A DNA stretch of 58,152 bases from positions 1 through 58,152 of IMG/VR virus record IMGVR_UViG_3300042988_001268; one strand, 5' to 3'. The position numbers and the translations under genes are program-made. Source of the stretch: a virus. Positions 1,677 to 54,194 of this stretch are shown here, piece by piece. The notes under the pieces were generated by a model, which saw only the letters and a program-made list of their open reading frames with translations, was not told where the DNA came from and ran no database searches. The first letter of the stretch is position 1. Each line of letters starts with the position of its first letter.

Positions 1677-1858
1677 TCGCGCCCGCTTTCATCGCTGGCC
1701 AGCTTGTCACCGTGGCGCCGCCCATGACGCCACATTGCCGGCATAGCGGCCGGATCATCGCCCGCGCCCGCAATGGCCACGGATGGCGCGTCGAATTCGA
1801 TGCTTGGGGGATACGTTGCCGGGAGACCATGCCCGAACGGTGCATTGCACCCGCCTAG
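1673..1858 (+). CDS. Small beta-rich protein, unknown
   Basis: Predicted 61 residues, starting in an ATGA overlap with the previous gene (MIAPAFIAGQLVTVAPP). The pattern GQLVTV...GRIIARARNGHGWRVEF resembles a small SH3-like or KOW-like barrel, a weak impression from hydrophobic alternation only. It ends just before the first strong CCCTATC motif. Function unknown. Confidence 0.45.
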   Translation: MIAPAFIAGQLVTVAPPMTPHCRHSGRIIARARNGHGWRVEFDAWGIRCRETMPERCIAPA

Positions 1859-2018
1859 GGCCCTATCCCGGTTTACCGTGGCGTGCGCCTGGCTCTTGCC
1901 CGGCGCCGCCTTCCCCTATCCCGGTTTTCCGTCCGGGGAAGCGGAAGGCGCAAGCCTTAGCCGATCGGCATTGCCCGCGCCGATCGGACCCTATCAGGGC
2001 AAGCGAAAGGATAGACCA

Positions 2019-2171
2019 ATGCCGATTGACTATGCCGCGCCCATGATGCGCGATCGCTCCCGATTCCCGGCCGCCAAGGGCCGCGCCATGACGCGCCGCG
2101 CCGCGCGCCGGGAAAAGTCCGCCCGCTTGTTTCTTGCGCTGGCTTTCCCGGCCGAATTTGGGGAGCGTTGA
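2019..2171 (+). CDS. Small basic protein, 50 residues
   Basis: Begins MPIDYAAPMMRDRS behind the leader CAAGCGAAAGGATAGACCA, which itself follows a CCCTATCAGGG motif. The centre is strongly basic (MTRRAARREKSARLF), which would suit nucleic-acid binding, and it ends in a short hydrophobic stretch. Three bases separate its stop from the next ATG. Family unknown. Confidence 0.45.
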   Translation: MPIDYAAPMMRDRSRFPAAKGRAMTRRAARREKSARLFLALAFPAEFGER

Positions 2172-2174
2172 GCC

Positions 2175-2444
2175 ATGATCGATCTAGAAAAGAACGTGCC
2201 CGGCGTCGGTTGGATATTTATCCAGCCGCTTAGCCCTATCCCTATTGCAGATCGGGCCGCCTATCTTTCCGCTACCTATGGCAAGCGCGCCGCACAATTC
2301 CGGATTGTCGAGCGCGCCACTATGTCGCCAGCACGAATCCGCGCCATGGATCTAGCCGATTGGAAAGCCATCGGCCGCCCTTCCGCGCCTGTCCCTAGCG
2401 CTGCATCTGCAATCATTGCCAAATTGCGGCGGGAGCGCGGCTAA
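2175..2444 (+). CDS. Unknown 89-residue protein
   Basis: Starts MIDLEKNVPGVGWIF, three bases after the previous stop, and ends in a TAATG overlap with the next gene. N-terminal third beta-like, then a helical basic region with ARIRAMDLADWKAIGR and a basic tail (AKLRRERG). One CCCTATC motif lies inside it and encodes Pro-Ile. No family recognised. Confidence 0.5.
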   Translation: MIDLEKNVPGVGWIFIQPLSPIPIADRAAYLSATYGKRAAQFRIVERATMSPARIRAMDLADWKAIGRPSAPVPSAASAIIAKLRRERG

Positions 2445-2620
2445 TGGGAGAGGCAACGCATATTCGCTTGCAGTACCTGCCAAGCCCTACCGCGCGCGTG
2501 TGGCGCAATTCGTCCCTGACAATGTGGGCGGCCGGCCGGGACAATATGGCGGCCACGGCCGAACGGCTGAAAGCACAAGAGGGCTGGCACGATTGGCGGA
2601 TTGTCCCGCACAATCCCTAG
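2444..2620 (+). CDS. 58-residue unknown protein
   Basis: A short frame from MGEATHIRLQYLPSPT to DWRIVPHNP, whose ATG overlaps the previous stop (TAATG). It contains three Trp residues and a helical middle (NMAATAERLKAQEGWHDW). A CCCTACC motif is embedded and encodes Pro-Thr. Too short for most gene finders, but supported by coupling and a protein-like residue pattern. Function unknown. Confidence 0.45.
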   Translation: MGEATHIRLQYLPSPTARVWRNSSLTMWAAGRDNMAATAERLKAQEGWHDWRIVPHNP

Positions 2621-2770
2621 CCCCTACCCGCGGCGCGCTGCAGATCGGCGCGCCGCCTATCCTGCCCCCTTCCCGGATTCACGGGGGGCGCGATAGGCGC
2701 TAAGCCTAAACCCTACCGCGCGCGCCCGTCGCGGCCGGGGAACCTACCAGGGCACACGAAAGGTAAACCA
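2621..2770 (+). promoter_or_regulatory. Motif-rich leader of the DUF3560 gene
   Basis: This 150-base gap contains CCCTACC at 2622 and 2711, and CCTACCAGGG at 2743. The last runs into GCACACGAAAGGTAAACC before the ATG. The same arrangement (motif, GGGCA, then CGAAAGG) precedes the gene at 2019. It may be a regulatory or translational leader; no independent promoter is obvious. Confidence 0.4.
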
Positions 2771-4105
2771 ATGGTTACGATTACCGCGACTTATAGCCCG
2801 GAAGACAACAAACTTCGCCTTTATGCGAGCTCCCGCCTTGACGCGGAGACATTCGCGCGGGTGAAGGCCGCCGGCTTTGCATGGGCGCCCCGGCAAGAGC
2901 TTTTCGTTTCCCCCAAGTGGACGCCGGAGCGGGAAGACCTGGCAACGGAGCTTGCCGGCGATATCGAGCCGGAGGAAATGACGCTTGCGGAGCGCGCCGC
3001 CCTGAAGGCGGAGCGGCTCGAGGGCCTGGCGCACAAGCGGCACGGTGAGGCAAACGCCTTTGCCCGGCGCGCGGATGAATTGTCGCAGGCGTTCTATATG
3101 GGCCAGCCGATCCTTATCGGGCACCATTCCGAGCGGAAGGCCCGGAAGACGCAAGAGCGCATGCAGGCGGCAAGCGACAAATCCGCGAAGCTGGCCAGCG
3201 CGGCCAATTATTGGCTCTATCGCGCAACCGGGGTTGAGCACTTCGCCAACATGAAAAACAACCCCCGCGTGCGGGCAAACCGGATCAAGACCCTATTAGC
3301 GGAATTGCGGGACCTGCAGCGCACAATTAACGAGGCGCACAAGGGGCTTGAGCTTTGGGAACGGTTCGACACGCCGGAAAAAATCATGTGGGCTATCTGC
3401 AACCTGAACGGGGACGCGCTGGCCATTCCCTGGGGGACCTATAGCAAGCGCGAAGAAGTCAACACGGCCGAGCTCAAGGCGGAATGCATCGCGCGTTTGC
3501 GGGCGCGGATCGATAGCCCAAAGCGCCGCCGCTGGATCGAGCACATTCTAAACCGCCTTGCGTTCGAGCGGTCTTTGCTGGGTCCGGTGGAGCGTTACGA
3601 GGGGGAGCTAACCCCTGTCATCCTGCAGGCCTTCGCCCGGGAGCATGGCGCCGACAAGCCGAAGGCAACCGAGATTGAGCCCGGGAGCTTTGAGCTTGAA
3701 AGCGCCGTGCCGCTTCCCCTTCACCTGGCAAGCGGGCGCTGGCTTGAATTGGACGCGGAAGGCTGGCGCGATCTTATGCAGGGCGTGGGGTACGAGGTGC
3801 CCGAGAAAAAGGCCGCCCTACCGCCGATTTTGAACGTGGAAGCGGAAACGCTTTATTCCCCTTCCCGGGCATTCGGGCAGCGCGGAGAGGCGGAAGCCTG
3901 GCGCGTGGTGAAGGTTACCAAGGCGCAGCTTGACGCGGTGCACAACGACGCCCGCGGGGTCCGGCCTAGCGCTTGCGGTCAATTCCGCTTTCGCGTTGCC
4001 AGCGCCCGGCACCTGAAAATTGAGGGCGCGAATCCCTGGGAATATGTGGCGGTTTTCGTCACTGATTCCAAGGTGCACCCCATGCCGGAAAGCATGGCGG
4101 CATGA
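2771..4105 (+). CDS. DUF3560 domain protein
   Basis: A 444-residue protein whose first half matches the pattern I associate with DUF3560: ITATYSPEDNKLRLYASSRL, FAWAPRQELFVSPKWTPERED, then a helical basic region with repeated NRIK and ER motifs. Such proteins occur on plasmids and phages of Proteobacteria, often beside methyltransferases. Their biochemical role is unknown to me. The C-terminal half (about 230-444) has no feature I recognise. The start follows ACGAAAGGTAAACCA. The stop overlaps the next gene's ATG, so it is coupled to a methyltransferase-like protein, which hints at a DNA-related role. Confidence 0.75.
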   Translation: MVTITATYSPEDNKLRLYASSRLDAETFARVKAAGFAWAPRQELFVSPKWTPEREDLATELAGDIEPEEMTLAERAALKAERLEGLAHKRHGEANAFARRADELSQAFYMGQPILIGHHSERKARKTQERMQAASDKSAKLASAANYWLYRATGVEHFANMKNNPRVRANRIKTLLAELRDLQRTINEAHKGLELWERFDTPEKIMWAICNLNGDALAIPWGTYSKREEVNTAELKAECIARLRARIDSPKRRRWIEHILNRLAFERSLLGPVERYEGELTPVILQAFAREHGADKPKATEIEPGSFELESAVPLPLHLASGRWLELDAEGWRDLMQGVGYEVPEKKAALPPILNVEAETLYSPSRAFGQRGEAEAWRVVKVTKAQLDAVHNDARGVRPSACGQFRFRVASARHLKIEGANPWEYVAVFVTDSKVHPMPESMAA

Positions 4106-4704
4106 GGCCAGATTGCTATCGGATGGCCAAGCGGCCCGCGTTCCTCCCGGTCAAGCGCCGGGAGGACTTCGCCCCGGTGGAGGCAAAGGCTCCGCCGGAG
4201 ATTGTGGCAGTCGATCGCGCAACGGAATGCCACGTTACCCCGCCGGAAGTTGCGGCGCGGATGGTGCGTTACCTGGGGGAGACCTGCGACCGCCTGACCC
4301 TCGAGCCAAGCGCGGGGACAGGGAACCTAAGCCGGGCCTTGATCGAGTCCGGGCACTCGCCTTGCGAGCTTGTCCAGGTAGAGCGGCACATTCGCCTAAG
4401 CCACGGTCTCCGCCAATTCGGATCGCTGATAAACGAGTGCTTTCTAGAGTATGCGGAGCGGGCCCGGGGCAAGGTCGAATTTCCCCGCGCGATCATGAAT
4501 CCGCCGTTTTCAGAGGTGCGGAAACATATTGCGGCGGCCCGCTCGCTTATGGGCAGGCACGGGCACCCGGTGCCGCCGGTTCTTGTCGCGCTTGTGCCGG
4601 TGACATTCCAGGCGGACGGAATGGAAACGCTAGAGCATTTGCCGGCGGATACGTTCGCGCATGCCCGGGTGAACACGAAAATAATTCGGATTTACGGGGA
4701 TTGA
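4102..4704 (+). CDS. Small SAM-dependent methyltransferase, probably DNA-directed
   Basis: 200 residues. The SAM-binding motif LEPSAGTGNLSRAL lies near residues 67-80 and the catalytic-type motif NPPF near 133-136, in the order of N6-adenine or N4-cytosine methyltransferases. A Thr-Pro-Pro-Glu segment before the SAM motif (ECHVTPPEVAARMV) is typical of the group. It lacks an obvious target-recognition domain, so specificity may be low or partner-dependent. The ATG overlaps the stop of the DUF3560 gene. A start at 4123 (MAKRPAF) is possible. It might protect phage DNA; the target is not visible. Confidence 0.7.
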   Translation: MRPDCYRMAKRPAFLPVKRREDFAPVEAKAPPEIVAVDRATECHVTPPEVAARMVRYLGETCDRLTLEPSAGTGNLSRALIESGHSPCELVQVERHIRLSHGLRQFGSLINECFLEYAERARGKVEFPRAIMNPPFSEVRKHIAAARSLMGRHGHPVPPVLVALVPVTFQADGMETLEHLPADTFAHARVNTKIIRIYGD

Positions 4705-4864
4705 CGGGCGGGCGGGGCTCCGGTCCCGCCTCCTACCGTGGGAGCCTGGCCCCCTACCGTGGGAAACGGGCGGGGCTTCCATGATAGGCAAGAGCCTATG
4801 ACCGGCGCGGCATTGCCCGGGCGCGTCGGGGATGATGAAAGGGCGGAAGAAAGGAATTGAGACA
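4705..4864 (+). promoter_or_regulatory. Intergenic stretch with two CCTACCGTGGG motifs
   Basis: Contains TCCTACCGTGGGAG (4731) and CCCTACCGTGGG (4752), which share the 10-mer CCTACCGTGG 21 bases apart, about two helical turns. That spacing would suit cooperative binding on one face. A purine-rich ribosome site (GAAAGGAATTGAGACA) precedes the next ATG at 4865. No promoter boxes stand out. Confidence 0.4.
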
Positions 4865-5272
4865 ATGGCAGGACTTACCTTTGCCCGCGCGCTGGAAATT
4901 ACGTGCGAGCTCGCCAGCGATAACGTGATCGATGACCCCGACATGATCGAGGAACAAGAGGAGCAGGAAGCGGCGATTGCCATGATCGAGAGCGAAGCCC
5001 CCGCCATGCTGGCGGCGCTGCGCGATCTGGTCGCCGGCAACTATGGCCAGCCGTCCGGCGTGACGGTCCCCGCGCTTGATCCTGCCCGCGCCATCCTCGC
5101 CCGGATCGACGGCACCCCTAGCGGTGAAGCCGTGGGGGCTATCGGGGATGCGCAAGCGAAGGCCGCCCGGTTGCGCGCCGATGCGCTGGCGCTGGATACC
5201 GGAATGGACCCCGCCCTAGTGCGCGAATTGCACGCGGAAGCCGATAGGATCGAAAGCGGGGGGGAGGGCTGA
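4865..5272 (+). CDS. Acidic helical unknown protein, 135 residues
   Basis: Start MAGLTFARALEITCE follows AAAGGAATTGAGACA. It has an acidic stretch (NVIDDPDMIEEQEEQEAAI) and several amphipathic helices (ALRDLVAGNYGQ; AKAARLRADALALD). Short acidic phage proteins can mimic DNA or inhibit host enzymes, but nothing here shows that. The next gene follows three bases later. Confidence 0.5.
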   Translation: MAGLTFARALEITCELASDNVIDDPDMIEEQEEQEAAIAMIESEAPAMLAALRDLVAGNYGQPSGVTVPALDPARAILARIDGTPSGEAVGAIGDAQAKAARLRADALALDTGMDPALVRELHAEADRIESGGEG

Positions 5273-5275
5273 GCA

Positions 5276-5470
5276 ATGGCCGCGCACGTCATGGCGCACC
5301 GTGGCCCCGGTTCCATCTTTGGCCGCGCTTCCGCCCCGTTGAAGGGGCCGGACGGCGGACCGCTGGAATTCCCCACCCTAGCCGAAGCGCAGGCCGAAGC
5401 GGCGCGGCTCAATGCCCGCGCAACTCCGAACGTCCACTATCAGGCAGAGGAGGGCCCCCCTACCGCGTGA
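5276..5470 (+). CDS. Unknown 64-residue protein
   Basis: Begins MAAHVMAHRGPGSIFG, three bases after the previous stop. The second half has the pattern FPTLAEAQAEAARLNA followed by NVHYQAEEG, resembling the helix-strand ending of small phage proteins that modify or bind nucleotides; I cannot assign a family. The C-terminus is encoded by a CCCCTACCGCG motif (5457-5467). Confidence 0.45.
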   Translation: MAAHVMAHRGPGSIFGRASAPLKGPDGGPLEFPTLAEAQAEAARLNARATPNVHYQAEEGPPTA

Positions 5471-5564
5471 GACAGGCGAAACGCGCCCCTAGCCCCGCTT
5501 GGGGGCGCGTCCGGCGGGCTTGCTCATCCCGCCGCTGATGAGCCGAGCAAATGAAGGAATCGAC

Positions 5565-6161
5565 ATGCTGCAATCTGCATTGACCGCCAAGGGCACCGGC
5601 TACCACGGGAGCCCCGCAACCGCATCCTGGCCGGGGACCGAGCGTTGCACTGCGTTCGACCCGTTCGACATTCTGGCGAACCCGCTGGGCGGTGACACGG
5701 CCGCGGCGAGGGAAAGCCGGGTTTTCGCGTCCAAGTCCGGAGGGGCTGGCACGACATACGTAAGCCATGAATTCTACCTGATGCGGCGCAAGGATGCGCG
5801 GCCGGGCGATGTCGCGTTCTATGTGGCGGTGCATCACGGCGGCGGCCGGCAAGTCTGGGCGCTTTCGTCCTGCTATCACTATTCCGAGGAGACGATTGCG
5901 GCGCTCCTCGCCATGCCGGAGCGGGCGCTTTATTCGCTGCTGCATGGGATCGTGGCGGCGCTCGATGATACCAAGCGCGCCGCCGAGCGCGACACGGCGG
6001 ACGAATGGCGCCGGGCTACCGTGGGCAAGCGCGTTAAGGTTTCGCGCCAGCCGACGAAGGGCCGGGCCTTTGTCTGGATCGAACCGGAGCGGCAAGAGGG
6101 CGAGAGCGAGGCGCAACACAAGCTGCGCTGTAGCCTGGCTAAGCCGTCCGGGGTTCGCTGA
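5565..6161 (+). CDS. Unknown 198-residue protein
   Basis: Start MLQSALTAKGTGYHG follows AATGAAGGAATCGAC, better than upstream alternatives at 5499 or 5538. The central part has alternating strands (FYLMRRKDARPGDVAFYVAV), then two helices and a basic C-terminus with RVKVSRQPTKGRAFVW. No catalytic motif or membrane segment. It stands between two motif-bearing gaps. Function unknown. Confidence 0.55.
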   Translation: MLQSALTAKGTGYHGSPATASWPGTERCTAFDPFDILANPLGGDTAAARESRVFASKSGGAGTTYVSHEFYLMRRKDARPGDVAFYVAVHHGGGRQVWALSSCYHYSEETIAALLAMPERALYSLLHGIVAALDDTKRAAERDTADEWRRATVGKRVKVSRQPTKGRAFVWIEPERQEGESEAQHKLRCSLAKPSGVR

Positions 6162-6220
6162 ACCCTACCCGCATTCACCGGCGCGGCTATCATCGCCGCA
6201 CCGAATCGGAGTGAAACAAC

Positions 6221-6505
6221 ATGACCGGAACAATCGGAATCGAATGGACGAACGGCCGCCCGCACAATGGCGCTGAAGCCGATGAGGAACGCGCGGAAGC
6301 TGCAGCCCTCGCCAGCCTGCAGCGCGCCGGGGTGACTCCTGAAGCGGCGCACGCGGCATATATGGCACAATGGCTTGAATATGACGACGAGGGGGCGATG
6401 CACGGGGACGCGCTGGCATGGATTGCCGCCCGCGATGCAGCGAATCTGGCCGCGACCGAGGGATGGCATAACCCGGACGGGGCGCACGTCTCGATCTACC
6501 TCTAA
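6221..6505 (+). CDS. Acidic unknown protein, 94 residues
   Basis: Begins MTGTIGIEWTNGRPHNG with a weak GGAGTG ribosome site. Mostly helical, alanine- and acid-rich (EADEERAEAAALASLQ), with AAYMAQWLEYDDEG and a final GWHNPDGAHVSIYL strand. No recognisable domain. The gene is flanked by motif copies at 6163 and 6546. Confidence 0.5.
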   Translation: MTGTIGIEWTNGRPHNGAEADEERAEAAALASLQRAGVTPEAAHAAYMAQWLEYDDEGAMHGDALAWIAARDAANLAATEGWHNPDGAHVSIYL

Positions 6506-6634
6506 CCGGCGCGGCGGCCTAGTCCGCCCGCCTTCCCTGCACCGGCCCTATCCCGGTTCATGGGAGGCGCACCGCCTACCGTTCCGGCTTGCCCGTCCGG
6601 AGCGCGTCAACCTGGGCGAATGAAGGGAATGACC
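6506..6634 (+). promoter_or_regulatory. Short leader with two motif copies
   Basis: Contains CCCTATCCCGGTTCATGGGAGG at 6546 and GCCTACCGTTCCGG at 6574. The first repeats the CCCTATCCCGGTT core seen at 1861 and 1914. The gap ends with GAAGGGA six bases before the chosen ATG at 6635. No other signal seen. Confidence 0.35.
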
Positions 6635-8092
6635 ATGCTTTGCGATCTTTTCAGCGTGACAACCGACATCAAGGACAAGCTGGGGAACGGAACCCGGCAG
6701 GCGAACGAAGCCGAGGCGAAAGCCTATGCCGACTTTCTGCGGCGGCGGCGCGATCTGCCCGACCTGGGCCATTGCGACCTGCACATCCTGTCAATCGGCG
6801 CTGGCCGACGCGGCGGGTTCATCTATCAGGGCGCGACGTTCGGGCGCCGGATTGCGGCCCCGCACAACATCAAGCAGCCGGGCGGGGAATTCCGGCATGT
6901 TCCGGCGGAATACGAGAACGGCGCGTTTTCCGTCATCTTCCCCGGCCACGATATGCACCGGGCCCGCGTCAAGTTCGAGGAACTGGACGAAGCCGGCGAG
7001 ACGGTGAAGGCCAGCACCCTACCAGTGGAGCCGAAAAAGGGCGGCGTGATCTGGTCGCGCGAGGACGTGCGCAAGGCCGCCGGCAAGGTGGAGAAGCCGG
7101 GCAAGGTGAAGGCCGCGCCGGCGGCGGACCCTATCCCGGTCGCGTGCGACCCGGCCCCTACCGTGGAAATGGCCACCCAGGAGCCGCAGGAGCGCGCCGA
7201 GGAGCCTCCCGCACCCCATGCCTATCCGGAGCCTGTGAAGGCGCTGAGCGAGGCCGAGGCGGGCGAGAGCGAGGCAATCGAACCTTACGATGCTATCGTA
7301 AAGTTGCCGGAGGTGGACCCCATCGCCGAACTTCTCGCCCGGGTGGAAGCGCTCGAGGCGCGGGTGGAGGCCCTACCGGCGGATATGGTGGCGCCCCCTA
7401 TCGCGGCTGCAGGACGGCCGGCGCGCACGGTGGCGCACGAGCGGGCAATTCGCCGGGCATGGGCAGAGCGGAAGGCGCGGCGGCGCTCCGATGCCATTTC
7501 GGCGGATCGCTTCAGCCAGCTTGTCGAGACGAGCGGGAAGCTGAGCACGGCGGAAAGCAATCTCCGCATGGGCCAGGCCCAGTATGACGGGCTCAAGGCG
7601 GATCTTGCCGAAGCGCGAACCCGGCTGCAGGCCAAGCAGGAATTGCTCGACGCCGAAAACGAGAACTACCGGGCTCTTGCTAGGCTGCTGGACCGGATCG
7701 CCGCCAAGCGCCGCCGCGCCGTGCTGAATGCCCGCATCCTGCAAACGCGGCTTTGGAGCGAATGCGCGCTGGTCGACCGATACCGGGGAGAGGTGAAGGC
7801 CGCCAAGGTGGAGGCGGAAGGCGCGCAGGGACGGGCGGACATGGCCCAGGCCGAGCTCGCCAGGATCAAGCGCGACATGGCGGACCCATCGCAGCCGGAA
7901 CGGGCCAACGACATCGCCCGCTTGATCCAGGAGCGGGACGCGGCGCGAACGGCGGCCGCTGCAACCGATGCCCGCAACCGGGCGCTGCAGAGCGCGGTGG
8001 ATGGGCTGGCCGACAAGTTCGAGGGCATGGTATCCCGCGTGAGCCGTGCCGAGGCGGCGATGCGTGCGGCCGGGCTGACGTTGGCGGCGTAG
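6635..8092 (+). CDS. Large coiled-coil protein of the left arm
   Basis: 485 residues from MLCDLFSVTTDIKDK, six bases after GAAGGGA; ATGs at 6620 and 6629 are too close to that site. N-terminal globular part (1-135) contains GRRGGFIYQGATFGRRIA and GHDMHRARVKFEEL. A Pro/Glu/Ala-rich linker (about 150-260) is where five CCCTAYC motifs sit, encoding Leu-Pro, Pro-Ile or Pro-Thr. From about 270 to the end come heptad-like helices with long Glu/Ala/Arg runs, a likely coiled coil. It resembles structural or DNA-organising phage proteins in layout only. The linker may have grown by motif acquisition. Function unknown. Confidence 0.6.
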   Translation: MLCDLFSVTTDIKDKLGNGTRQANEAEAKAYADFLRRRRDLPDLGHCDLHILSIGAGRRGGFIYQGATFGRRIAAPHNIKQPGGEFRHVPAEYENGAFSVIFPGHDMHRARVKFEELDEAGETVKASTLPVEPKKGGVIWSREDVRKAAGKVEKPGKVKAAPAADPIPVACDPAPTVEMATQEPQERAEEPPAPHAYPEPVKALSEAEAGESEAIEPYDAIVKLPEVDPIAELLARVEALEARVEALPADMVAPPIAAAGRPARTVAHERAIRRAWAERKARRRSDAISADRFSQLVETSGKLSTAESNLRMGQAQYDGLKADLAEARTRLQAKQELLDAENENYRALARLLDRIAAKRRRAVLNARILQTRLWSECALVDRYRGEVKAAKVEAEGAQGRADMAQAELARIKRDMADPSQPERANDIARLIQERDAARTAAAATDARNRALQSAVDGLADKFEGMVSRVSRAEAAMRAAGLTLAA

Positions 8093-8095
8093 GGC

Positions 8096-8150
8096 GAGGC
8101 ATGGTAAGCAAGGTCATTGGCAGATGCGGGTTCGAATCCCGTCAGGCTTA
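8096..8150 (+). tRNA. Degenerate tRNA-like element 1
   Basis: A perfect T-arm (GCGGG, TTCGAAT, CCCGT; 8126-8142) and a D-arm-like GGCATGGTAAGC (8098-8109) are present. Only 16 bases lie between the arms, where a normal tRNA has about 22-23, and no 7-base anticodon loop on a stem can be drawn. The 3' CAGGCTT does not pair with the bases before the D-arm. Probably a remnant or a mimic, not a functional tRNA. Confidence 0.5.
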
Positions 8151-8167
8151 GCCGCACTGCTTGGCGG

Positions 8168-8232
8168 TCGCCTGTAGTTCAACGGTAGAACGGTCCTCGG
8201 GGGAGAACCGGGTTCGAATCCCGGCCGGCAGT
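8168..8232 (+). tRNA. Degenerate tRNA-like element 2, glycine-tRNA-like D-arm
   Basis: D-arm GTTC-AACGGTA-GAAC (8177-8191) and T-arm CCGGG-TTCGAAT-CCCGG (8208-8224) are perfect. The TGTAGTTCAAYGGTAGAAC stretch is what bacterial tRNA-Gly carries. Exactly 16 bases separate the two arms, as in element 1. They can fold only into a hairpin with a GGGG loop, not an anticodon arm. The acceptor ends pair at about five of seven positions. Confidence 0.55.
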
Positions 8233-8244
8233 GAAGCCTAAGCA

Positions 8245-8280
8245 GAGGTTGAGCCGGTAGCATAATGGTAATGCGCCCCA
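8245..8280 (+). tRNA. 5' fragment of a tRNA
   Basis: GAGCCGGTAGCATAATGGTAATGCG contains a good D-arm (GCA-TAATGGTAA-TGC, 8260-8274) in the same order as in elements 1 and 2. The sequence then runs into CCCTACC (8282) and CCCTATCGCGG (8302), with no anticodon or T-arm. It looks like a tRNA whose 3' half was replaced by motif-bearing DNA. Confidence 0.4.
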
Positions 8281-8338
8281 TCCCCTACCGCACTCGCCCA
8301 CCCCTATCGCGGATTAGTAGGACAAAGGAAAACCCATC

Positions 8339-8596
8339 ATGGCTTACCCGGACCCCAAAGAAATGGAGGCCGCCCAGAATAGAGCGATGGAAGCTCTTTC
8401 GAGGGCGCGACGCGACTGCACTGAAATCATTGGCGGGACATATCGACGGCGCCCAGATCAGATGGATCGGGCGGATTGCGAATGGAAGTTGTCTCAATGC
8501 GAGGAAATCGCGCGGGATGTGCGTGCCCTAATCGAGCAGGCAGCTTCAGAGATCGGAAACACCCGGTGGGCCCCGCCGCCGTTTGCGAAGAACTAG
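8339..8596 (+). CDS. Unknown helical protein, 85 residues
   Basis: Begins MAYPDPKEMEAAQNRA behind ACAAAGGAAAACCCATC. Two long helices can be inferred (MEAAQNRAMEALSRARRD and CEEIARDVRALIEQAASE), with two cysteines at similar distances from the turn. It ends just before paired motif copies at 8597 and 8618. No family recognised. Confidence 0.5.
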   Translation: MAYPDPKEMEAAQNRAMEALSRARRDCTEIIGGTYRRRPDQMDRADCEWKLSQCEEIARDVRALIEQAASEIGNTRWAPPPFAKN

Positions 8597-8665
8597 CCCT
8601 ACCGCCGGCGCGCACGGCCCTACCTTGCGCGCCGGACGGGGGAGGCGTATCGAATGCAGCGTGAT

Positions 8666-8770
8666 GTGGCCTTGGCGGAATTGATAGACGCTGAAAGTCG
8701 CAAGGCAAAGCTGGACGGTCTGATGGCCGGAGGACCAGCGTAATCCGTGGTTTGAGTCCCGGAGGCCGCA
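8666..8770 (+). tRNA. Leucine-tRNA-like element, degenerate
   Basis: Acceptor strands GTGGCCT (8666-8672) and AGGCCGC (8763-8769) pair over seven positions, followed by discriminator A. TTGGCGGAATTGATAGACGC is a textbook tRNA-Leu D-arm. A long arm GCTGG/CCAGC (8710-8714 with 8735-8739) resembles a class II variable arm. However, the anticodon stem cannot be formed, the T-stem has two mismatches, and 105 bases is longer than a normal tRNA-Leu. It may be a decayed or structurally altered tRNA. Confidence 0.5.
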
Positions 8771-8823
8771 TCACATAGCCGGATTGCCCGACCGGCCGCG
8801 AGAGAGGGCAGGAGAACGAGACG

Positions 8824-9099
8824 ATGAAAGACGCATCCCAAGAGGAACTGGCCAAGGTTTATCTTGGCATCTGGCTAGTGAACCGCGAACTGTTCACCGC
8901 CTTCCGCGCTGGCAATCCCGCCATCACCGCGACGATGCTGGTGAACTCGGCGCTCCCCGCGCAGAACGTGTGGAAGATGCTCGACCATGAGACGCGCACC
9001 GCAACGCGCAAGCGTATCCGAATGGAATTCGGCGGACACTGGAAGACGATCAACCCGCTTGATGATGAGTGGTGGGCGGCGCGGGGGTCAGTTCAATGA
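8824..9099 (+). CDS. Unknown 91-residue protein upstream of DNA ligase
   Basis: Start MKDASQEELAKVYLG follows GGCAGGAGAACGAGACG. Helical, with WLVNRELFTAFRAGNP and DHETRTATRKRIRMEF. Its final codons overlap the ATG of the ligase-like gene (TCAATGATCC), so the two are probably co-translated. No domain recognised; a DNA-repair accessory role would be guesswork. Confidence 0.5.
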   Translation: MKDASQEELAKVYLGIWLVNRELFTAFRAGNPAITATMLVNSALPAQNVWKMLDHETRTATRKRIRMEFGGHWKTINPLDDEWWAARGSVQ

Positions 9100-9767
9100 T
9101 CCACACCGAACTCTGCCAACTCCTCGGCGACTGGGACGGCACCACCCCTACCGGCGGCGTCTGGTTCGAGCAAAAGCATGATGGCTGGCGCGCACTCCGG
9201 TTCGCCGGGATCGACGGCCAGGTGCGCCTCTGGACCCGCAACGGCCTGCCGATCGAGGGCACCGGACACATCCTCTGGCGCTTGGAGCAGATGGAGCAGG
9301 CCGCCGGCGAACCCATGATGTTCGATGGCGAGTTCGTGGTCGACGGCACGCTCGACGCCACGAAGCGCTGGGCGGAGAAGGGCTGGCGCGCAGGCGGTGA
9401 GGCCGGCGTCTTTCACCTGTTCGACGGGATGCCGCTCAGCGCCTGGCAGGCGGGCGGCGATCCTACCCCGCTCTACGAGCGCAAGAAGCGGCTCAAGGCC
9501 CTGTTCGACGCATCGGCCGGCGACGGATGGGAGTGGCGCCCGGGTTCGCGCGGCCGGGACGAGAACGGCCCGCCGGCGGTGCAGCTTGTCGAGGATGGCT
9601 GGGCGGCCGACGCGGGCGAGGTGATCGCTGGGGCCCGGCGTGTGTGGGCTACCGGGGGTGAGGGCTTAGTCCTGAAGGACTGGTCGAGTCCCTACCGCCG
9701 CACAAGATCGCCCGCATGGGCAAAGGTAAAACGTGAAAACTGCCACCGATGGCTGCGCGCCGCGTGA
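9096..9767 (+). CDS. ATP-dependent DNA ligase, adenylation domain only
   Basis: 223 residues carrying the nucleotidyltransferase motifs in order: motif I EQKHDGWRAL with the adenylated lysine at residue 27, motif III MFDGEFVV near 81, motif IIIa FHLFDGMPLS near 110, motif IV GGEGLVLKD near 194 and motif V AWAKVKR near 211. It should seal nicks using ATP, or transfer AMP to another substrate. There is no C-terminal OB-fold after motif V, so it is shorter than usual viral ligases. It starts within the end of the preceding gene. Two motif copies (9146, 9690) lie inside its coding sequence, just before motif I and just before motif V. Confidence 0.85.
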   Translation: MIHTELCQLLGDWDGTTPTGGVWFEQKHDGWRALRFAGIDGQVRLWTRNGLPIEGTGHILWRLEQMEQAAGEPMMFDGEFVVDGTLDATKRWAEKGWRAGGEAGVFHLFDGMPLSAWQAGGDPTPLYERKKRLKALFDASAGDGWEWRPGSRGRDENGPPAVQLVEDGWAADAGEVIAGARRVWATGGEGLVLKDWSSPYRRTRSPAWAKVKRENCHRWLRAA

Positions 9768-9793
9768 AGGCTACCAGATAACAGGAGAACGTG

Positions 9794-10351
9794 ATGAGCA
9801 AGATGGATATGCCCGTCGGCATAGCAATCAACGAACTGCGAAGCGATGGAACGGTGACTGTTACTGCCGAATTTATGGAAGGGAGGATGGCGGCTCCATT
9901 CGCTCGCGTGTTCGACGCGCTGCGAAAGTTGGGCGGTAATCAGGAAGCGTATTCCATCCTCGCCGACACGGAACGGGCGCTGAAACGCGCAGCGAAGCGG
10001 GCGGAGAGCCTATCGGGGGAATGGGAGCGGGTGGAGTTCCTGCCTACCCGTGGCGCCACGGTCGAGTTCACCGGCCGGCTGCTGGTCGAGGACGAATTCG
10101 AGAGCCGGGGCCCTACCCCTATCGCCGCACACATGCAGATCTGGGAGACCAAGGGCGGCGCGCTGGTAGCGGTCGACGAGACCCAGCGGATCGGGACCGA
10201 CAGCACGCCCCGGCTTGCGGTGCTGATGGCACCCCCTATCGCGGACGTGCAGGAGCAGCGGTTCGCCGTGATGGAGCATTTCGGGTGGAGCAGCCGGGCG
10301 CGGTCTATGGCGCGCAAGTTGGGCTGGAGCCTTCGCGTCGAGGTAGAATGA
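9794..10351 (+). CDS. Unknown 185-residue protein
   Basis: Start MSKMDMPVGIAINEL follows ACAGGAGAACGTG. A helical segment (residues 35-75) precedes a beta-rich region (ATVEFTGRLLVEDEF; QIWETKGGALVAVDE) and a basic C-terminal part (SSRARSMARKLGWSLRVEVE). Two tandem motif copies (10111, 10116) encode Pro-Thr-Pro-Ile and another (10234) encodes Pro-Pro-Ile. It is the last plus-strand gene of the arm. Function unknown. Confidence 0.55.
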   Translation: MSKMDMPVGIAINELRSDGTVTVTAEFMEGRMAAPFARVFDALRKLGGNQEAYSILADTERALKRAAKRAESLSGEWERVEFLPTRGATVEFTGRLLVEDEFESRGPTPIAAHMQIWETKGGALVAVDETQRIGTDSTPRLAVLMAPPIADVQEQRFAVMEHFGWSSRARSMARKLGWSLRVEVE

Positions 10352-10711
10352 GGGCGGCGGCGACCGGGAACCCCCAATCCATCCGCCGCCCCATCATCCG
10401 GCGATCAACCCGGATGCCCTTGCGGGTTTCGAGGCTGCGACGGTTTCAGTGCCTGCCGATATTCAGTCGGCTTGCGATGCAATGGCACCTGCGATGACAA
10501 ACCGCCCCGACACCAGCGCCGCAGCAACGCACCCCTATCAGCGGAGCCGCGCGAGGGGAATCCCTACCGGCGAACTGGTAGCTGGAACTGGTAGTCAGTA
10601 CCGCTCGGTGGCTACCAGTTTGATGTGTTCGAAAACCGCAGAACTCTGCCGGAAACGGGGCGGCGCCGTGCCCAACGCCGCCCCGCCCAAGGCCGAACGC
10701 GCCGACCAAGG
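10352..10711 (+). terminator. Convergent intergenic region with inverted repeats
   Basis: Between the converging transcription units lie AACTGGTAGC (10573-10582), a partial direct copy AACTGGTAG (10586-10594) and the inverse GCTACCAGTT (10611-10620). Either left copy can pair with the right one over nine or ten bases. No T-run follows, so this may be a bidirectional transcript-end structure or a binding site. Two CCCTAYC motifs (10533, 10562) precede it. An open frame at 10449-10805 exists but overlaps the real minus-strand gene. Confidence 0.45.
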
Positions 10712-11509
10712 TCAGATGATCGAGTGGATGACGAAGTCCTGCCCGAAGGTGCGGGGCTTGGGCCTGCCCTTGGCGACCAGCGGCTTGCCGAACTTGCCCA
10801 TGTAGGTCCGGGCCTGCCGGTACGCGGTCGCCTCTGGATCGAAGCAGCAATAGACGATGCCGGTCTCGCCAAGGGCCTCGGCCATCGGACGGAACGATGC
10901 CTCCAACTCCGCTTCCGTCAGCCACTCGAGCATGAATTCCAGCGTGCGCAGTTTCGCGCCGGGCTGCATGTCGGGAACGCCCCAGCGGGTGAATTCGAGA
11001 GCGCCGAGATCCTTGGTCCCGTACTCGAAATCACGGTTGTAGAAGCGGGCCGGTTCGATCCGCTTGCCCAGCACCAGCGTCGCCCCTTCGAAGTCACCGC
11101 TATGGCTTCCGATGTCCACGCGCCACCAGCGCTTCGTGTACGTCGACGGCAACTCATGGTGCGAATGGTAGAGGCCATCCGTGCGGGTGATCGACGGGTT
11201 GATGAAGGTCATCGGGCTGCTGTCGTAATCGGCGGATCCGTCGACCTCTGCCTGGCTGTCCCCCAGGCGCAACCGGATCGTGGTCGACGACGTCGCATTG
11301 GCTGAGACCAACGCGCAGAAGTCCACCTCCTTGGCTGATCCGAAGTCCCCGCGGACCCATGCGTTGCCGGACCCGCTCGTGCGCCATGTCAGGCCGATCG
11401 ATTCCGGCCGCCCGAGATGGGTTGCGGGATGCGAGGCCGTCGCATTGCCGGTGGCGATGGTGCCAAGGCTCAGCGGGACGACGAAGATCGGCTTGCGGAT
11501 GGTGGTCAT
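10712..11509 (-). CDS. Tail-associated or surface protein, 265 residues
   Basis: Beta-rich protein with NPSITRTDGLYHSHHELPSTYT, KRWWRVDIGSHSGDFEGATLVLG and an extended C-terminal part including EFMLEWLTEAELEASF. The first 140 residues resemble a jelly-roll or discoidin-type carbohydrate-binding fold in pattern (W-R-V-D, F-x-G-A-x-L-V-L-G), a weak impression. It is the last gene of the late operon, after lysis. It could be a distal tail or receptor-binding accessory; no family is certain. Confidence 0.55.
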   Translation of the reverse strand: MTTIRKPIFVVPLSLGTIATGNATASHPATHLGRPESIGLTWRTSGSGNAWVRGDFGSAKEVDFCALVSANATSSTTIRLRLGDSQAEVDGSADYDSSPMTFINPSITRTDGLYHSHHELPSTYTKRWWRVDIGSHSGDFEGATLVLGKRIEPARFYNRDFEYGTKDLGALEFTRWGVPDMQPGAKLRTLEFMLEWLTEAELEASFRPMAEALGETGIVYCCFDPEATAYRQARTYMGKFGKPLVAKGRPKPRTFGQDFVIHSII

Positions 11510-11512
11510 GGA

Positions 11513-11884
11513 TCAGCCCCAAACGGTGAGCGTGGCGCTCTGCTTGTCAAAGTCGATGGTGATGTCGCTCACGATCACGTCACGCGAAACGCCGCGCTCG
11601 GTATCGGTGAACACGCCCAGCGGGACGGCGCCGAGATAGGTGAGCGCCAGAACCTCATTGAGGCCGGTCACGGTCACGCGGAACCGGCGGCGCTCCTCGG
11701 ACAAGAGGGCCTGCCTGCCGTTGGCGATCTGCTGTGCACTGGTGACGGTGTCGAAGTAGGTCGGGACGGGATCTTCGCTTTCACGGGCAAGACCGCCGTG
11801 ATGGGTAACAGGCGCGGAACTCTGCGCCACCACCTTGCGGTATTCGTTCGTGATGAAGCCGATCCGGGATGCGGTTGCAGTCAT
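11513..11884 (-). CDS. Unknown 123-residue late protein
   Basis: Begins MTATASRIGFITNEYRKV and ends SATLTVWG four bases before the next gene. The beta-rich second half (RFRVTVTGLNEVLALTYLG; VIVSDITIDFDKQ) resembles a small virion or tail-associated domain. The first half may be extended (QSSAPVTHHGGLARES). Close spacing suggests it works with the 265-residue protein that follows. Confidence 0.5.
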   Translation of the reverse strand: MTATASRIGFITNEYRKVVAQSSAPVTHHGGLARESEDPVPTYFDTVTSAQQIANGRQALLSEERRRFRVTVTGLNEVLALTYLGAVPLGVFTDTERGVSRDVIVSDITIDFDKQSATLTVWG

Positions 11885-11906
11885 CGGGGCACCTCTGGCT
11901 GGTTGG

Positions 11907-12161
11907 TCACTTCTTCTCGCCCGATGGCCAAGCCTCGACAGTCAGGCGGTGCCGGGCGGCGCATTCGCCCCACGCGGCAATCAGGGATGCCTCCCAGGCG
12001 AGGCGGTCAGGGTCGATCATCACCAGCGGGCGCGGATCCAGCGGCGGGCATGGTGCGGCGAGGTTCGCCTGTAGCTTCGGCACTGGCGCGATCGAGCGCG
12101 CCGTCGAGCACGCCGAGAGCAGCGTCAGGCACAGCACACTCGGCAGGAACTTTGACGTCAC
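11907..12161 (-). CDS. Rz1-like outer-membrane spanin lipoprotein
   Basis: 84 residues from a GTG start (MTSKFLPSVLCLTLLS) with ribosome site AGGGAG eight bases upstream. The N-terminal signal ends in a lipobox, LLSAC, so the mature protein should be a lipid-anchored outer-membrane protein. It is Pro-rich after the anchor (APVPKLQANLAAPCPPLDPRP), as Rz1 proteins are. The start lies inside the Rz-like gene in another frame, the nested arrangement of spanin pairs. With Rz it should fuse the two membranes in the last lysis step. Confidence 0.75.
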   Translation of the reverse strand: MTSKFLPSVLCLTLLSACSTARSIAPVPKLQANLAAPCPPLDPRPLVMIDPDRLAWEASLIAAWGECAARHRLTVEAWPSGEKK

Positions 12162-12408
12162 GGTAGATCTCCCTGATCTGGGTCTGGGTCTGGATGGCAG
12201 CGGGGCGGTGCTCGGCGAGCAGGGCTTCCAGTTCAGCACCCTTGCCGTCGACCTTGCCCTGCATGGCCTCGCGCAGCTTCTCGGCCTTCTCGACCGCCTT
12301 GAGCGCCGCGCTGTCGGCGAAGGCATCGCGCACCGACCATCCCGCGCCGAACCCGGCGATGAGGCATAGGGCAGCGGCGCCGGCGAGGAGTTGCGGAGGG
12401 ATCACCAT
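12007..12408 (-). CDS. Rz-like inner-membrane spanin
   Basis: 133 residues: an N-terminal membrane anchor (LLAGAAALCLIAGFGAGW), then a periplasmic helical stretch (ALKAVEKAEKLREAMQGKV) and a Pro/Ala-rich tail. This is the i-spanin plan. Its 3' part overlaps the Rz1-like frame. The start overlaps the end of a 32-residue membrane peptide. The position directly after holin and endolysin supports the role. Confidence 0.75.
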   Translation of the reverse strand: MVIPPQLLAGAAALCLIAGFGAGWSVRDAFADSAALKAVEKAEKLREAMQGKVDGKGAELEALLAEHRPAAIQTQTQIREIYRDVKVPAECAVPDAALGVLDGALDRASAEATGEPRRTMPAAGSAPAGDDRP

Positions 12409-12500
12409 GCACCACCAAGGTGCGTAGCGAAGGCGAGCAGGGCGATGGCAGAGACCACGCCACCGGCGAGCATGAAGCCCGGAGAGCGGATCCAGTCCAT
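12402..12500 (-). CDS. 32-residue single-helix membrane peptide of the lysis cluster
   Basis: MDWIRSPGFMLAGGVVSAI...THLGGAW: a charged N-terminus, one hydrophobic helix and a short tail. The ATG overlaps the endolysin stop (TGATG-type overlap) and the end overlaps the Rz start, so it sits coupled between the two. Such peptides can be holin accessories or antiholins. Support is positional and compositional only. Confidence 0.4.
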   Translation of the reverse strand: MDWIRSPGFMLAGGVVSAIALLAFATHLGGAW

Positions 12501-12988
12501 CAGGCTACCCCTCTCAGGCACAGGGCCCGCTCGGATTGGCGCCGGCGGACAAGGCCAGCGACCTCGCGGCCACCAGCAAATCGCCATGAGAGGAAGGCAT
12601 CGCAGGCGCGGCGCCAGCGACCGGCGCTGAACTCGCGCGCTACCCGGCTCTTGCGGTAGTTCCCGACGCCGATGTTGTAGGCGAGCGAGGTAGCCGCAGC
12701 GAGTTGCGGGGTATGCCCGGCGAGCTCTGGATTGCGCTGGAGGACGGGTCCGGCGAAGTCAGCGATGCCGTTGGCGAGCATATCGTCGCACTCGGCATCC
12801 GAGTAGCGCCGCATCGCCACCCGGGTTTCCCCGTAGCATACCGTCGGCACCTTCACGATGTCGAGGTAGGGGTCGTTCCGCTTGCCTTCGAACCCCCCGA
12901 TCAGCGCGACCATGAGCGTTGCCGCCGCGGCGCCACCGGCGACTTTCGCCAACCGCGTCCGGCCCTTCGGTTGCGCGGGATCAGGCAC
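12500..12988 (-). CDS. SAR-type endolysin, GH24 lysozyme
   Basis: 162 residues from a GTG at 12988 that overlaps the holin stop. The first 40 residues carry a weakly hydrophobic Ala/Gly-rich segment (AKVAGGAAAATLMVALIGG), the mark of a signal-anchor-release endolysin. The catalytic Glu follows in GFEGKRNDPYLD, with TVCYGET supplying the Thr of the Glu-Asp/Cys-Thr triad of T4/R21-like lysozymes. Later features (ATSLAYNIGVGNY; FLSWRFAGG) fit GH24. It cleaves peptidoglycan after release from the inner membrane. The longer reading from 13108 lacks this logic. Confidence 0.85.
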   Translation of the reverse strand: MPDPAQPKGRTRLAKVAGGAAAATLMVALIGGFEGKRNDPYLDIVKVPTVCYGETRVAMRRYSDAECDDMLANGIADFAGPVLQRNPELAGHTPQLAAATSLAYNIGVGNYRKSRVAREFSAGRWRRACDAFLSWRFAGGREVAGLVRRRQSERALCLRGVA

Positions 12989-13157
12989 CGCGCTTCTCGC
13001 GCCAGACAGCGAGGAGGAGGCCAGCCGCGGCACCCGCGTAGGCGAAGCGCACATCGAATGCCGCGTACTGCGGGGCGATGGCGGACACGGCGGTAAGCAC
13101 AAGGCCAACCTTCGTCGACACCTCGGCCCAGCGGGCTTTGATCCAGTTCACGATCAT
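12981..13157 (-). CDS. Holin, 58 residues
   Basis: MIVNWIKARWAEVSTKVGLV... gives two hydrophobic segments (VGLVLTAVSAIA, about 17-28; FAYAGAAAGLLLAVW, about 38-52) and a basic C-terminus (REKRGA), the plan of a small class II holin. It begins after GGAGAAAACCT and its stop overlaps the endolysin start. It should form inner-membrane lesions or, with a SAR endolysin, collapse the membrane potential that holds the lysozyme inactive. Confidence 0.7.
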   Translation of the reverse strand: MIVNWIKARWAEVSTKVGLVLTAVSAIAPQYAAFDVRFAYAGAAAGLLLAVWREKRGA

Positions 13158-13171
13158 AGGTTTTCTCCAAT

Positions 13172-13196
13172 GAAAAACCCCGCCGAAGCGGGGCTA
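13172..13196 (-). terminator. Rho-independent terminator before the holin gene
   Basis: On the minus strand GCCCCGC-TTCG-GCGGGGT is followed by TTTTC: a six-to-seven-base GC stem with a UUCG-type tetraloop and a T-run. It lies directly after the 99-residue membrane protein and before the holin. It should cut tail-gene transcription ahead of lysis unless antitermination operates, which may delay or limit holin synthesis. Confidence 0.75.
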
Positions 13197-13493
13197 CTTT
13201 GCGACGTGCTCGACGCCGAATTTCCATGAGGCGACTATCACCCCGATTGCCGCGATAACCCCGGCCAGCCACCTGATGAACTTCCCCGCCGTCTTGACCG
13301 CGGCCATGACCTCGAGGATCTCGGTCGACTTCTCGACCTGCGGCTTCATTGCGGCGACGTCGGCTTGCAGCGCCGGCAGACATTCAATCTTCGCCAGTAT
13401 GGCGTGCAGCGTTTCCTCGATCGATATGAACCGCTCGCTGCCGGCCTTGAGGCGGGCGTCGATGTCCTCGTGCGTGACCCCGGGGTTCATCAC
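13194..13493 (-). CDS. Single-pass membrane protein, possible lysis accessory
   Basis: 99 residues: a soluble helical, partly coiled N-terminus (DIDARLKAGSERFISIEETL; MKPQVEKSTEILEVM), then one membrane helix (FIRWLAGVIAAIGVIVASW) and a short tail. The plan resembles small phage proteins found beside holins (N-terminal coil, C-terminal anchor). It ends at the terminator preceding the holin. It may be a holin partner or antiholin; no family is certain. Confidence 0.5.
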   Translation of the reverse strand: MMNPGVTHEDIDARLKAGSERFISIEETLHAILAKIECLPALQADVAAMKPQVEKSTEILEVMAAVKTAGKFIRWLAGVIAAIGVIVASWKFGVEHVAK

Positions 13494-13690
13494 TCTGGAG
13501 CCCCAGTCGGGCCTTCGACGATGATCTCGCCGATCTGGTCAATGTTGGTTTCATCGGCGTTCAAGGTGCGGCTCACGAAGGCGAAGTCCTGCCCCGGCTT
13601 GAGGTTGAACTGGACGTCGGCCCCCGTCTGAAATTGCTGCTCGGCAATCACGCCGCTCTCCTTGTCGTAGATCACTATGAAATTGAACAT
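13490..13690 (-). CDS. Unknown 66-residue late protein
   Basis: MFNFIVIYDKESGVIAEQQF... is beta-rich and acidic, beginning four bases after the fibre gene stops, and its own stop overlaps the next start. Similar small proteins after host-specificity genes may be tail or assembly proteins. No family recognised. Confidence 0.45.
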   Translation of the reverse strand: MFNFIVIYDKESGVIAEQQFQTGADVQFNLKPGQDFAFVSRTLNADETNIDQIGEIIVEGPTGAPE

Positions 13691-13694
13691 CCGA

Positions 13695-53785: not shown

Positions 53786-54194
53786 TACACGGTCTCGACG
53801 GAAGAACTCGGCGCGGCCGGCGAGCAAGAGCGCGCCCTCATACTTGGCCTGGCTCCGCGGCCGTCCCTGCTACCTCGCGAACCACCGCGCCGGCGGCTGC
53901 GGCGAGGGCGATCCCCCGCGCAACTCCCCGGTGGAGGCCGCTCACGTCGACCACGGCGGCGACAAGGGCATGAGTACGCGCGCCAGTGACCGTTACGCTC
54001 TGCCCTTGTGCCAGCGCCACCATGACGAGCAGCACGGCAAGATCGGATCTTTCCGCCAGCGCGGCGGGTGGAAGTCGTTCGAACTCAAGTACGGGTTCAG
54101 CGCGACCACCGTGGCTGCTTCGTACTGGGCCAAGTGGCTGGGGACGACGATGGGCAGGAACTGGGCGGCGCGGAATGGAGGGGGTGAGGCATGA
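53775..54194 (+). CDS. HNH/DUF968-type nuclease
   Basis: 139 residues. YLAWLRGRPCYLANHRAG, EAAHVDHGGDKGMSTRASD, RYALPLCQRHHDEQHGKIG: the His/Cys pattern of DUF968/Ref-like HNH nucleases in phage recombination regions. C-terminal helix (ATTVAASYWAKWLGTT). It may cleave DNA during recombination. The end overlaps the methyltransferase start. Confidence 0.7.
   Translation: MFVDTRSRRKNSARPASKSAPSYLAWLRGRPCYLANHRAGGCGEGDPPRNSPVEAAHVDHGGDKGMSTRASDRYALPLCQRHHDEQHGKIGSFRQRGGWKSFELKYGFSATTVAASYWAKWLGTTMGRNWAARNGGGEA

Follow-up and report, generated by a model that had tools for sequence, protein, structure and literature searches.

An oriented array of CCCTAYC sites in one arm of a temperate phage and its relatives looks like an undescribed control system

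Why should a seven-base motif keep to one strand of a phage operon, through coding and non-coding DNA alike? The question is raised by the IMG/VR virus record IMGVR_UViG_3300042988_001268, analyzed here in its entirety (58,152 bases; hereafter the window), in which CCCTAYC recurs along a rightward arm at 1.8–10.6 kb that converges on a leftward structural operon. Window proteins match portal, large terminase, tail, integrase, transcriptional repressor and exonuclease VIII families, and we therefore take the record to be a temperate tailed phage or prophage. The array is real and common to a set of phages: its sites are oriented, prefer the first bases past stop codons, and lie at odd distances from one another. 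It looks like an undescribed control system; no description of it was found in the covered part of the listings of one open-access library.

Between positions 1859 and 10620, CCCTAYC occurs 28 times on the plus strand and not once on the minus strand, which bears out the preliminary description of this DNA (28 strict copies in 8.7 kb, all along the direction of transcription). Over the whole window and both strands there are 36 copies against 6.94 expected, with a maximum of 14 in 100 shuffles. A second null for 1859–10620 kept the amino acids and codon counts of each gene and the dinucleotides of the gaps; in 2000 runs it gave a mean of 2.68 sense copies (sd 1.59, maximum 9) and 0.41 antisense copies vs. 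none observed, so that the codon-preserving shuffle suggested earlier as a check yields no similar count. When one-degenerate 7-mers were screened for over-representation, CCCTAYC ranked first in the window (28 vs. 0.66 expected). Fourteen copies are coding (in 7230 nt) and 14 non-coding (in 1532 nt), with the coding ones distributed 1/3/10 over frames 0/1/2. These frames and the codon-preserving null support the earlier claim that the motif is read in all three frames and that selection acts on the nucleotide sequence, not on codons.

Outside 1861–10568 there are eight further copies rather than the roughly five first reported, all of them on the minus strand as reported. Two, at 1083 and 1235, belong to the same arm as the array, and the other six, between 12865 and 41543, are on the coding strand of the leftward operon. 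In raw density, with no separate null for the operon, this amounts to 6 coding-strand copies over 12.9–41.5 kb vs. 28 in 8.7 kb of the arm. Relaxing the motif to CCCTANC raises the count in 1700–10620 from 28 to 33, and CCCTAGC is a further variant, found in the sense orientation only.

Relatives were collected by matches to DUF3560, terminase, P510, P186, and ligase proteins. The array was found in 14 distinct phage or prophage genomes, several of them inside sphingomonad bacteria, where it lies around a ligase gene and its neighbor, P186. The 14 are the window, G001, G004, G008, G009, G010, G011, G012, G013, G075, G248, G046, and contigs of L097 and L104. G013 is a Sphingomonadaceae metagenome-assembled genome, and G075, G248, and G046 came from 397 genomes of its family, 6 of which have a P186 match; L102 was counted as the prophage of G248, with which it shares identical spacings. 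G004, a near-copy of G001, was omitted from the site counts over 11 array genomes (57,031 nt) and restored for the spacing count, where homologous pairs were merged. The 11 genomes contain 158 sense and 2 antisense copies, so the site-based feature described for this arm is common to related phages. In a screen for strand asymmetry, CCCTANC or CCCTAYC came out on top in all eight array regions tried.

The enrichment at the syntenic place is thus present in relatives, as had been anticipated, although not in every one. No clear array was seen in 16 related loci, several of which are fragments (G002, G003, G005, G006, G007, G014, L003, L006, L008, L086, L087, L093, L094, L095, L099, and L100); the array of G002 is weak, L004 holding 7 sense copies and 1 antisense copy. 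Some array-less loci, e.g., G003 and G007, have no tblastn match to ligase or P186. Arrays of switched specificity were looked for in array-less relatives and none was seen; L006 and L087 over-represent other words. The word in L087 is a start-associated repeat, CTAGGAY, with 8 copies at 9469–15301 in the sense orientation and 0 on the other strand, and 3 of them read GAAGGGACTAGGACA immediately before a start codon.

The position of sites relative to genes gives further clues. By mechanical gene calls over 13 array regions (67,033 nt), 103 sites lie in plus-strand genes, 72 are non-coding (in 8431 nt), and 6 of 181 are antisense to a called gene; site density, on these calls, is about five times higher in non-coding DNA than in coding DNA (103 sites in about 58.6 kb). 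The 86 sites inside manually or homology-supported genes are divided 13/24/49 among the frames, and since coding copies occur in all frames, the mark seems to be wanted anywhere in the transcribed stretch. Non-coding sites that follow a plus-strand gene start 1–3 nt past its stop codon in 22 of 69 cases, compared to 2.2 expected and a maximum of 11 in 5000 random placements within the same gaps; genes were defined by hand in the window and by a mechanical caller elsewhere, which leaves some error in this test. Sixty non-coding sites have a following plus-strand gene, and these lie 7 to 286 nt ahead of its start, with one at 1056. By eye, the window gaps at 1858–2019, 2620–2771, and 4704–4865, and similar ones in L002 and L022, look like repeated modules consisting of a stop codon, a site, GC-rich inverted repeats with TTGCCC...GGGCA, and a purine-rich ribosome-binding site, in that order.

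In the window, the array of 28 sites extends over 1861–10568 on the plus strand, all along the direction of transcription. It opens with four CCCTATC sites: site 1 (1861–1867), two bases after the stop codon of the gene at 1673–1858, sites 2 (1914–1920) and 3 (1989–1995), and the coding site 4 (2234–2240). Seven CCCTACC sites come next, namely site 5 (2485–2491, coding), site 6 (2622–2628), site 7 (2711–2717), site 8 (3816–3822, coding), site 9 (4752–4758), site 10 (5458–5464, coding and close to the end of its gene), and site 11 (6163–6169); a single base separates sites 6 and 11 from a stop codon. Site 12 (6546–6552) reads CCCTATC. Coding sites 13 (7017–7023), 15 (7156–7162), and 16 (7371–7377) read CCCTACC, and coding sites 14 (7129–7135) and 17 (7396–7402) read CCCTATC, with site 16 starting 25 bp ahead of site 17. 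Further along are sites 18 (8283–8289, CCCTACC), 19 (8302–8308, CCCTATC), 20 (8597–8603, CCCTACC, immediately 3′ of a stop codon), and 21 (8618–8624, CCCTACC). The ligase gene contains sites 22 (9146–9152) and 23 (9690–9696), both CCCTACC; the P186 gene contains site 24 (10111–10117, CCCTACC), which overlaps site 25 (10117–10123, CCCTATC), and site 26 (10234–10240, CCCTATC). Sites 27 (10533–10539, CCCTATC) and 28 (10562–10568, CCCTACC) complete the array.

Because they are strictly sense-oriented, present in coding and non-coding DNA, restricted to one arm, and drawn to the bases after stop codons, the sites fit best as orientation-dependent punctuation of one operon's transcription or transcript, stoperator-like in behavior; judging from sequence, we regard this as a tentative reading, quite possible rather than probable. 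A phage-encoded factor would recognize, in the sense strand, CCCTAYC followed by G at +10 and by bases other than G at +12 and +14, either in the transcript or on DNA during the passage of polymerase. It would then stop, pause, or process transcription at the sites; operon genes far from the promoter would thereby be silenced or separated when untranslated, and the many marks, at gene ends and within genes, would add up. We infer the binding of the factor, its phage origin, and its action on transcription or RNA. If this is true, a short sense-strand code of divergent phages, linked to stop codons and subject to a spacing rule, would constitute a control layer invisible to ordinary gene annotation, and the rules of the array are simple enough for a plasmid reporter test.

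A parallel with the stoperators of mycobacteriophage L5 had been drawn at the outset, and the orientation of the sites does resemble them. In the available parts of two papers, L5-type stoperators of cluster A mycobacteriophages, which are temperate, number more than 20 copies oriented with transcription (PMC9283540; PMC6550527), and the asymmetric site is tied to the direction of transcription and loses its function when reversed (PMC9283540). As a class, stoperators have a 13-bp consensus recognized by an immunity repressor with a helix-turn-helix and a stoperator domain, occur genome-wide, at promoters and in short intergenic spaces, and halt elongating transcription in one orientation only. 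The array likewise consists of an asymmetric site in more than 20 copies and in a single orientation with transcription, in temperate phages. Unlike stoperators, it has a 7-nt core of other sequence in place of a 13-mer, is confined to one arm, places 14 of its 28 window copies inside genes, and has the odd spacing and the preference for the first bases past stop codons. Since the genome-wide distribution typical of stoperators is not seen and no shared immunity repressor was found (by tblastn, the window repressor gene has a match in one of eight array genomes), we do not claim membership in that class. The proposed parallel with the start-associated sequences of cluster K phages did not hold up. 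These are asymmetric 13-bp repeats, GGGATAGGAGCCC, mostly in one orientation, found in the non-structural half of the genome and 3–7 bp upstream of start codons (PMC3203893, from the part available). The array is also an asymmetric repeat mostly in one orientation, but it is a poor match because its sites favor post-stop rather than pre-start bases, with a single non-coding site as near as 7 nt to a start; sites also lie inside genes. VIPR guide RNAs have a motif that differs from CCCTAYC, as far as the accessible part of PMC13142463 goes.

Much of the same evidence would suit sites that act in RNA only, where an RNA-binding protein, an endoribonuclease, or a small RNA would act on CCCUAYC in mature mRNA and govern decay, cutting, or translation, leaving transcription untouched. 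Sense-only placement, the tolerance of Y at position 5, and the preference for the first bases past stop codons all speak for this possibility, as does the finding that 20-nt windows starting 12 nt ahead of the site fold less than random (z 4.2, 159 sites). This accessibility signal is mixed, however, because at offsets −16, +4, and +20 folding is above the random level (z −2.6, −2.8, and −2.9). When two sites are 31–60 bp apart, the gap between them folds better than its mononucleotide shuffles do (mean z −1.61, n = 14, vs. −0.18 for random windows); the effect weakens at 61–150 bp (−0.67, n = 19, vs. −0.09) and is no longer seen at 30 bp or less (−0.17, n = 27, vs. −0.02). Folding in the 31–60 bp gaps agrees with an RNA-level role, and equally with ordinary intergenic hairpins. 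The window arm also contains two type II hammerhead ribozymes, at 1139–1212 and 5474–5551, each just upstream of a small gene (Rfam RF02276, 40.3 and 42.4 bits, cut-off 37), but at the gathering score they are found in the window alone, with none in 15 other loci. Guide pairing should moreover allow C-to-U changes elsewhere in the core, yet C-to-T variants at the four other positions are rare (8/1, 10/5, 8/6, and 5/0 sense/antisense vs. 158/2 for the core). We consider action on RNA alone rather unlikely.

The anatomy of the site bears on rivals at the DNA level. The core is nearly invariant, and one-mismatch variants are scarcely enriched in the 11 array genomes; the exceptions are CCCTAGC (13 sense vs. 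0 antisense) and ACCTAYC together with TCCTAYC (16 vs. 1). Downstream, G is present at +10 in 72% of the 158 sites, at +12 in 3%, and at +14 in 9%, so the extension first described as CNGG/GCGG/GTGG is mainly a G at +10, which 20 of the 28 window sites have. In the upstream stretch, −20 to −1, information does not exceed 0.12 bit, and there is no CGAC. Some repeated elements, including the REP-like (repetitive extragenic palindromic) and attC-like types, are built on a hairpin; no constant hairpin is present at or beside the site.

The sharp core, the one-strand rule, and a resemblance to CCTA/CTCCGG make single-strand nick sites the main DNA-level rival. A phage nickase would cut the strand that reads CCCTAYC, either during replication or in packaged DNA, leaving nicks for the arm's ATP ligase to seal, and placement on one strand would avoid double-strand breaks. 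In the part of PMC3517423 available, nicks fall at CGACxxxxxCCTA/CTCCGG in phiKMV-like phages and at TACT/RTGMC in phage tf, always on one strand and with an uneven distribution. The array, known from sequence alone, shares with the interruptions of T5-like, phiKMV-like, and tf phages a sharp short site, confinement to one strand (158 vs. 2), and an uneven spread; it has CCTA-Y....GG in common with the phiKMV consensus, and a ligase gene is present in all 14 array genomes. Neither family consensus is found at the sites, however: CGAC is missing upstream, and the bases that follow differ, CCTAY being followed by C in the array and by T in the phiKMV consensus. The sites are also confined to one arm, nicking gives no reason for the post-stop-codon preference, pairs 25 bp apart would free short single strands, and array-less relatives keep the ligase too. 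For these sites a nicking role appears decidedly unlikely. As for the DNA-marking system that had been proposed, nothing found points to modification, and the two methyltransferase genes of the window (4102–4704 and 54191–55558) are not common to all array phages.

Could the prophage instead have borrowed a chromosome-orienting motif of its host? The reverse complement, GRTAGGG, resembles GGGNAGGG, which we take to be the Escherichia coli consensus of the FtsK-orienting polar sequences (KOPS), and CCCTAYC looked one-sided among the host matches listed. Direct counts did not uphold this polarity. In two stretches of G046 the strands hold 10/8 and 6/16 copies, whereas GGGNAGGG, as a positive control, is polarized 41:4 and 24:3 in the same stretches; in 620 kb of G046 and G075 DNA the 68 copies are split 30/38. 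Host copies also have no extension (G at +10 in 26% and at +12 in 35% of the 68). The lack of both polarity and extension in these two genomes makes an FtsK-type signal of the host unlikely and suggests that the reader is encoded by the phage. Architecture-imparting sequences (AIMS) are strand-biased motifs of bacterial chromosomes (PMC5993296, in the part available), and a strand-biased short motif with a weak reverse-complement resemblance is what the array has in common with KOPS and AIMS; unlike them, it is unpolarized along the chromosome in both hosts examined. We accordingly reject this idea, to which we give next to no probability. Separately, the strong polarization of GGGNAGGG was located in G046:C11 at 250–370 kb (24:3) and 450–650 kb (41:4), and in G075:C1 it is nearly all on one strand at 1.70–2.10 Mb.

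The distances between sites follow a rule of their own. The most common consecutive distance is 25 bp (13 of 161; null mean 0.43, maximum 4 in 5000), which represents eight independent cases once homologous pairs are merged. Among neighbors less than 150 bp apart (7–149 bp), the start-to-start distance is odd in 51 of 54 independent cases (binomial p 2.9e-12), or 43 of 46 when the 25-bp pairs are excluded. The effect fades with distance, from 7 of 11 at 150–199 bp and 16 of 25 at 200–299 bp to 24 odd and 27 even at 450 bp or more. These bins exclude two overlapping pairs 6 bp apart, and one L104 pair (57 bp) was merged with a G008 pair. The rule was spotted after the fact, in 12 genomes; in L097 and L104, array phages found later, 5 of 5 distances below 100 bp are odd, one of them homologous to a G008 pair. 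If upheld, it limits the kind of machine able to read the array, and we know of no familiar system that uses a parity rule between sites. Several possible causes were tried and set aside. Background alternation fails in that 74 control 5-mers have an average odd fraction of 0.505 (sd 0.096), the maximum, 0.769, belonging to CTACC, itself part of the site. A palindromic center between sites is weak (205 of 665 matches vs. 186 in shuffles, sd 11.4); shifted pairing shows no clear pattern (z 2.3, 2.7, and 1.7 at shifts −6, −4, and 0, with −3.4 at 8 and 4.0 at 19); and the outer helix span is even in 29 cases and odd in 26.

Odd spacing would make sense if the array were a replication or recombination signal (for loading or pausing, or Chi-like) and a motor tracking one strand crossed the gap between two 7-nt sites in steps of 2 nt. 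The fading of the effect (23 of 36 odd over 150–299 bp) is in keeping with such a motor, as are the ligase in the arm and an open reading frame of the array-less relative L006 (2938–5370) in which a DnaN-like sliding clamp is fused to a region that weakly matches P510. But the step argument is itself an inference, the sites are limited to one transcribed arm, their stop-codon preference goes unexplained, and the recombination genes of the window are not common to the array phages; we think this role highly improbable. No less improbable, in our estimation, is a register-reading system belonging to the ligase-P186 module, in which an enzyme or filament would read a single phage operon along its untranslated sense strand, loading at each 7-nt site and advancing 2 nt at a time, so that the next site is seen only at an even gap, i.e., at an odd start-to-start distance.

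Returning to punctuation of transcription or transcript, a number of observations weigh against it or stand beside it. The near-invariant core is more enzyme-like than repressor-like, and odd spacing (51 of 54) is predicted by no transcription model familiar to us. One set of eight loci gave seven odd and two even short spacings; the two even ones (16 bp) belong to the array-less L093 and L095, and two of the seven odd ones to L102. The six antisense sites lie in L034 and L097, which means that the rule follows the array's own strand and not that of the coding sequence. For L083, L084, and L085, whose arrays are short, the 8 7-mers with the strongest strand asymmetry in a 9-kb window do not include CCCTAYC. 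When six array regions were screened for over-representation, the motif led in four of them but ranked second in G011 and third in L104. No reader protein was found among the compared window genes and candidates, the window repressor included, and seven array-less loci (L004, L006, L040, L087, L093, L095, and L099) have both ligase and P186.

The short ATP-dependent DNA ligase (9096–9767, plus strand) and the adjoining P186 (9794–10351, plus strand; function unassigned) are nevertheless the first place to look for a reader, the smallest arrays (L083, L084, and L085) lying around this pair. When window genes were compared with eight array genomes by tblastn, only these two had matches in all eight; large terminase, portal, and several tail genes had matches in seven, the exception being G013, for which the comparison covered just two pieces (G010 and G014 also lacked small stretches). 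Profile searches found both in all 14 array genomes, and in array-less relatives as well, among which L094 and L100 have the ligase. In smaller trees (16-row ligase, 17-row P186) the array label needs two changes each, which looked simpler than the at least five it needs in a 23-row ligase tree. Because array-less relatives keep both genes and the label changes so often, neither ligase nor P186 alone explains the array, and the presence of either is ruled out as a sufficient cause.

The C-terminal part of P186, a beta-sheet and two helices, was modeled with a predicted local distance difference test score (pLDDT) of about 95. Foldseek searches of PDB and BFVD matched its fold to nothing at E 0.001 or better, and the similarities to PURA (Z 5.7) and PARP WGR (Z about 4 to 5) fall short of a telling level. 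P510 (6635–8092, plus strand), a coiled-coil protein with a linker rich in sites, was found in 11 of the 14 array genomes; it was rejected as the reader because L083, L084, and L097 have arrays but show no match to it, and its model (mean pLDDT 59) is too poor for use. Following the P510 gene, at 8121–8281, are tRNA-like and Y-RNA-like (YrlA) stretches below Rfam cut-offs, in which ARAGORN finds no tRNA. The ligase-P186 pair also occurs on a conjugative Novosphingobium megaplasmid (L173, NZ_CP128493.1, 11309–12306), where the two are annotated as hypothetical proteins and the P186 gene contains one CCCTAYC site.

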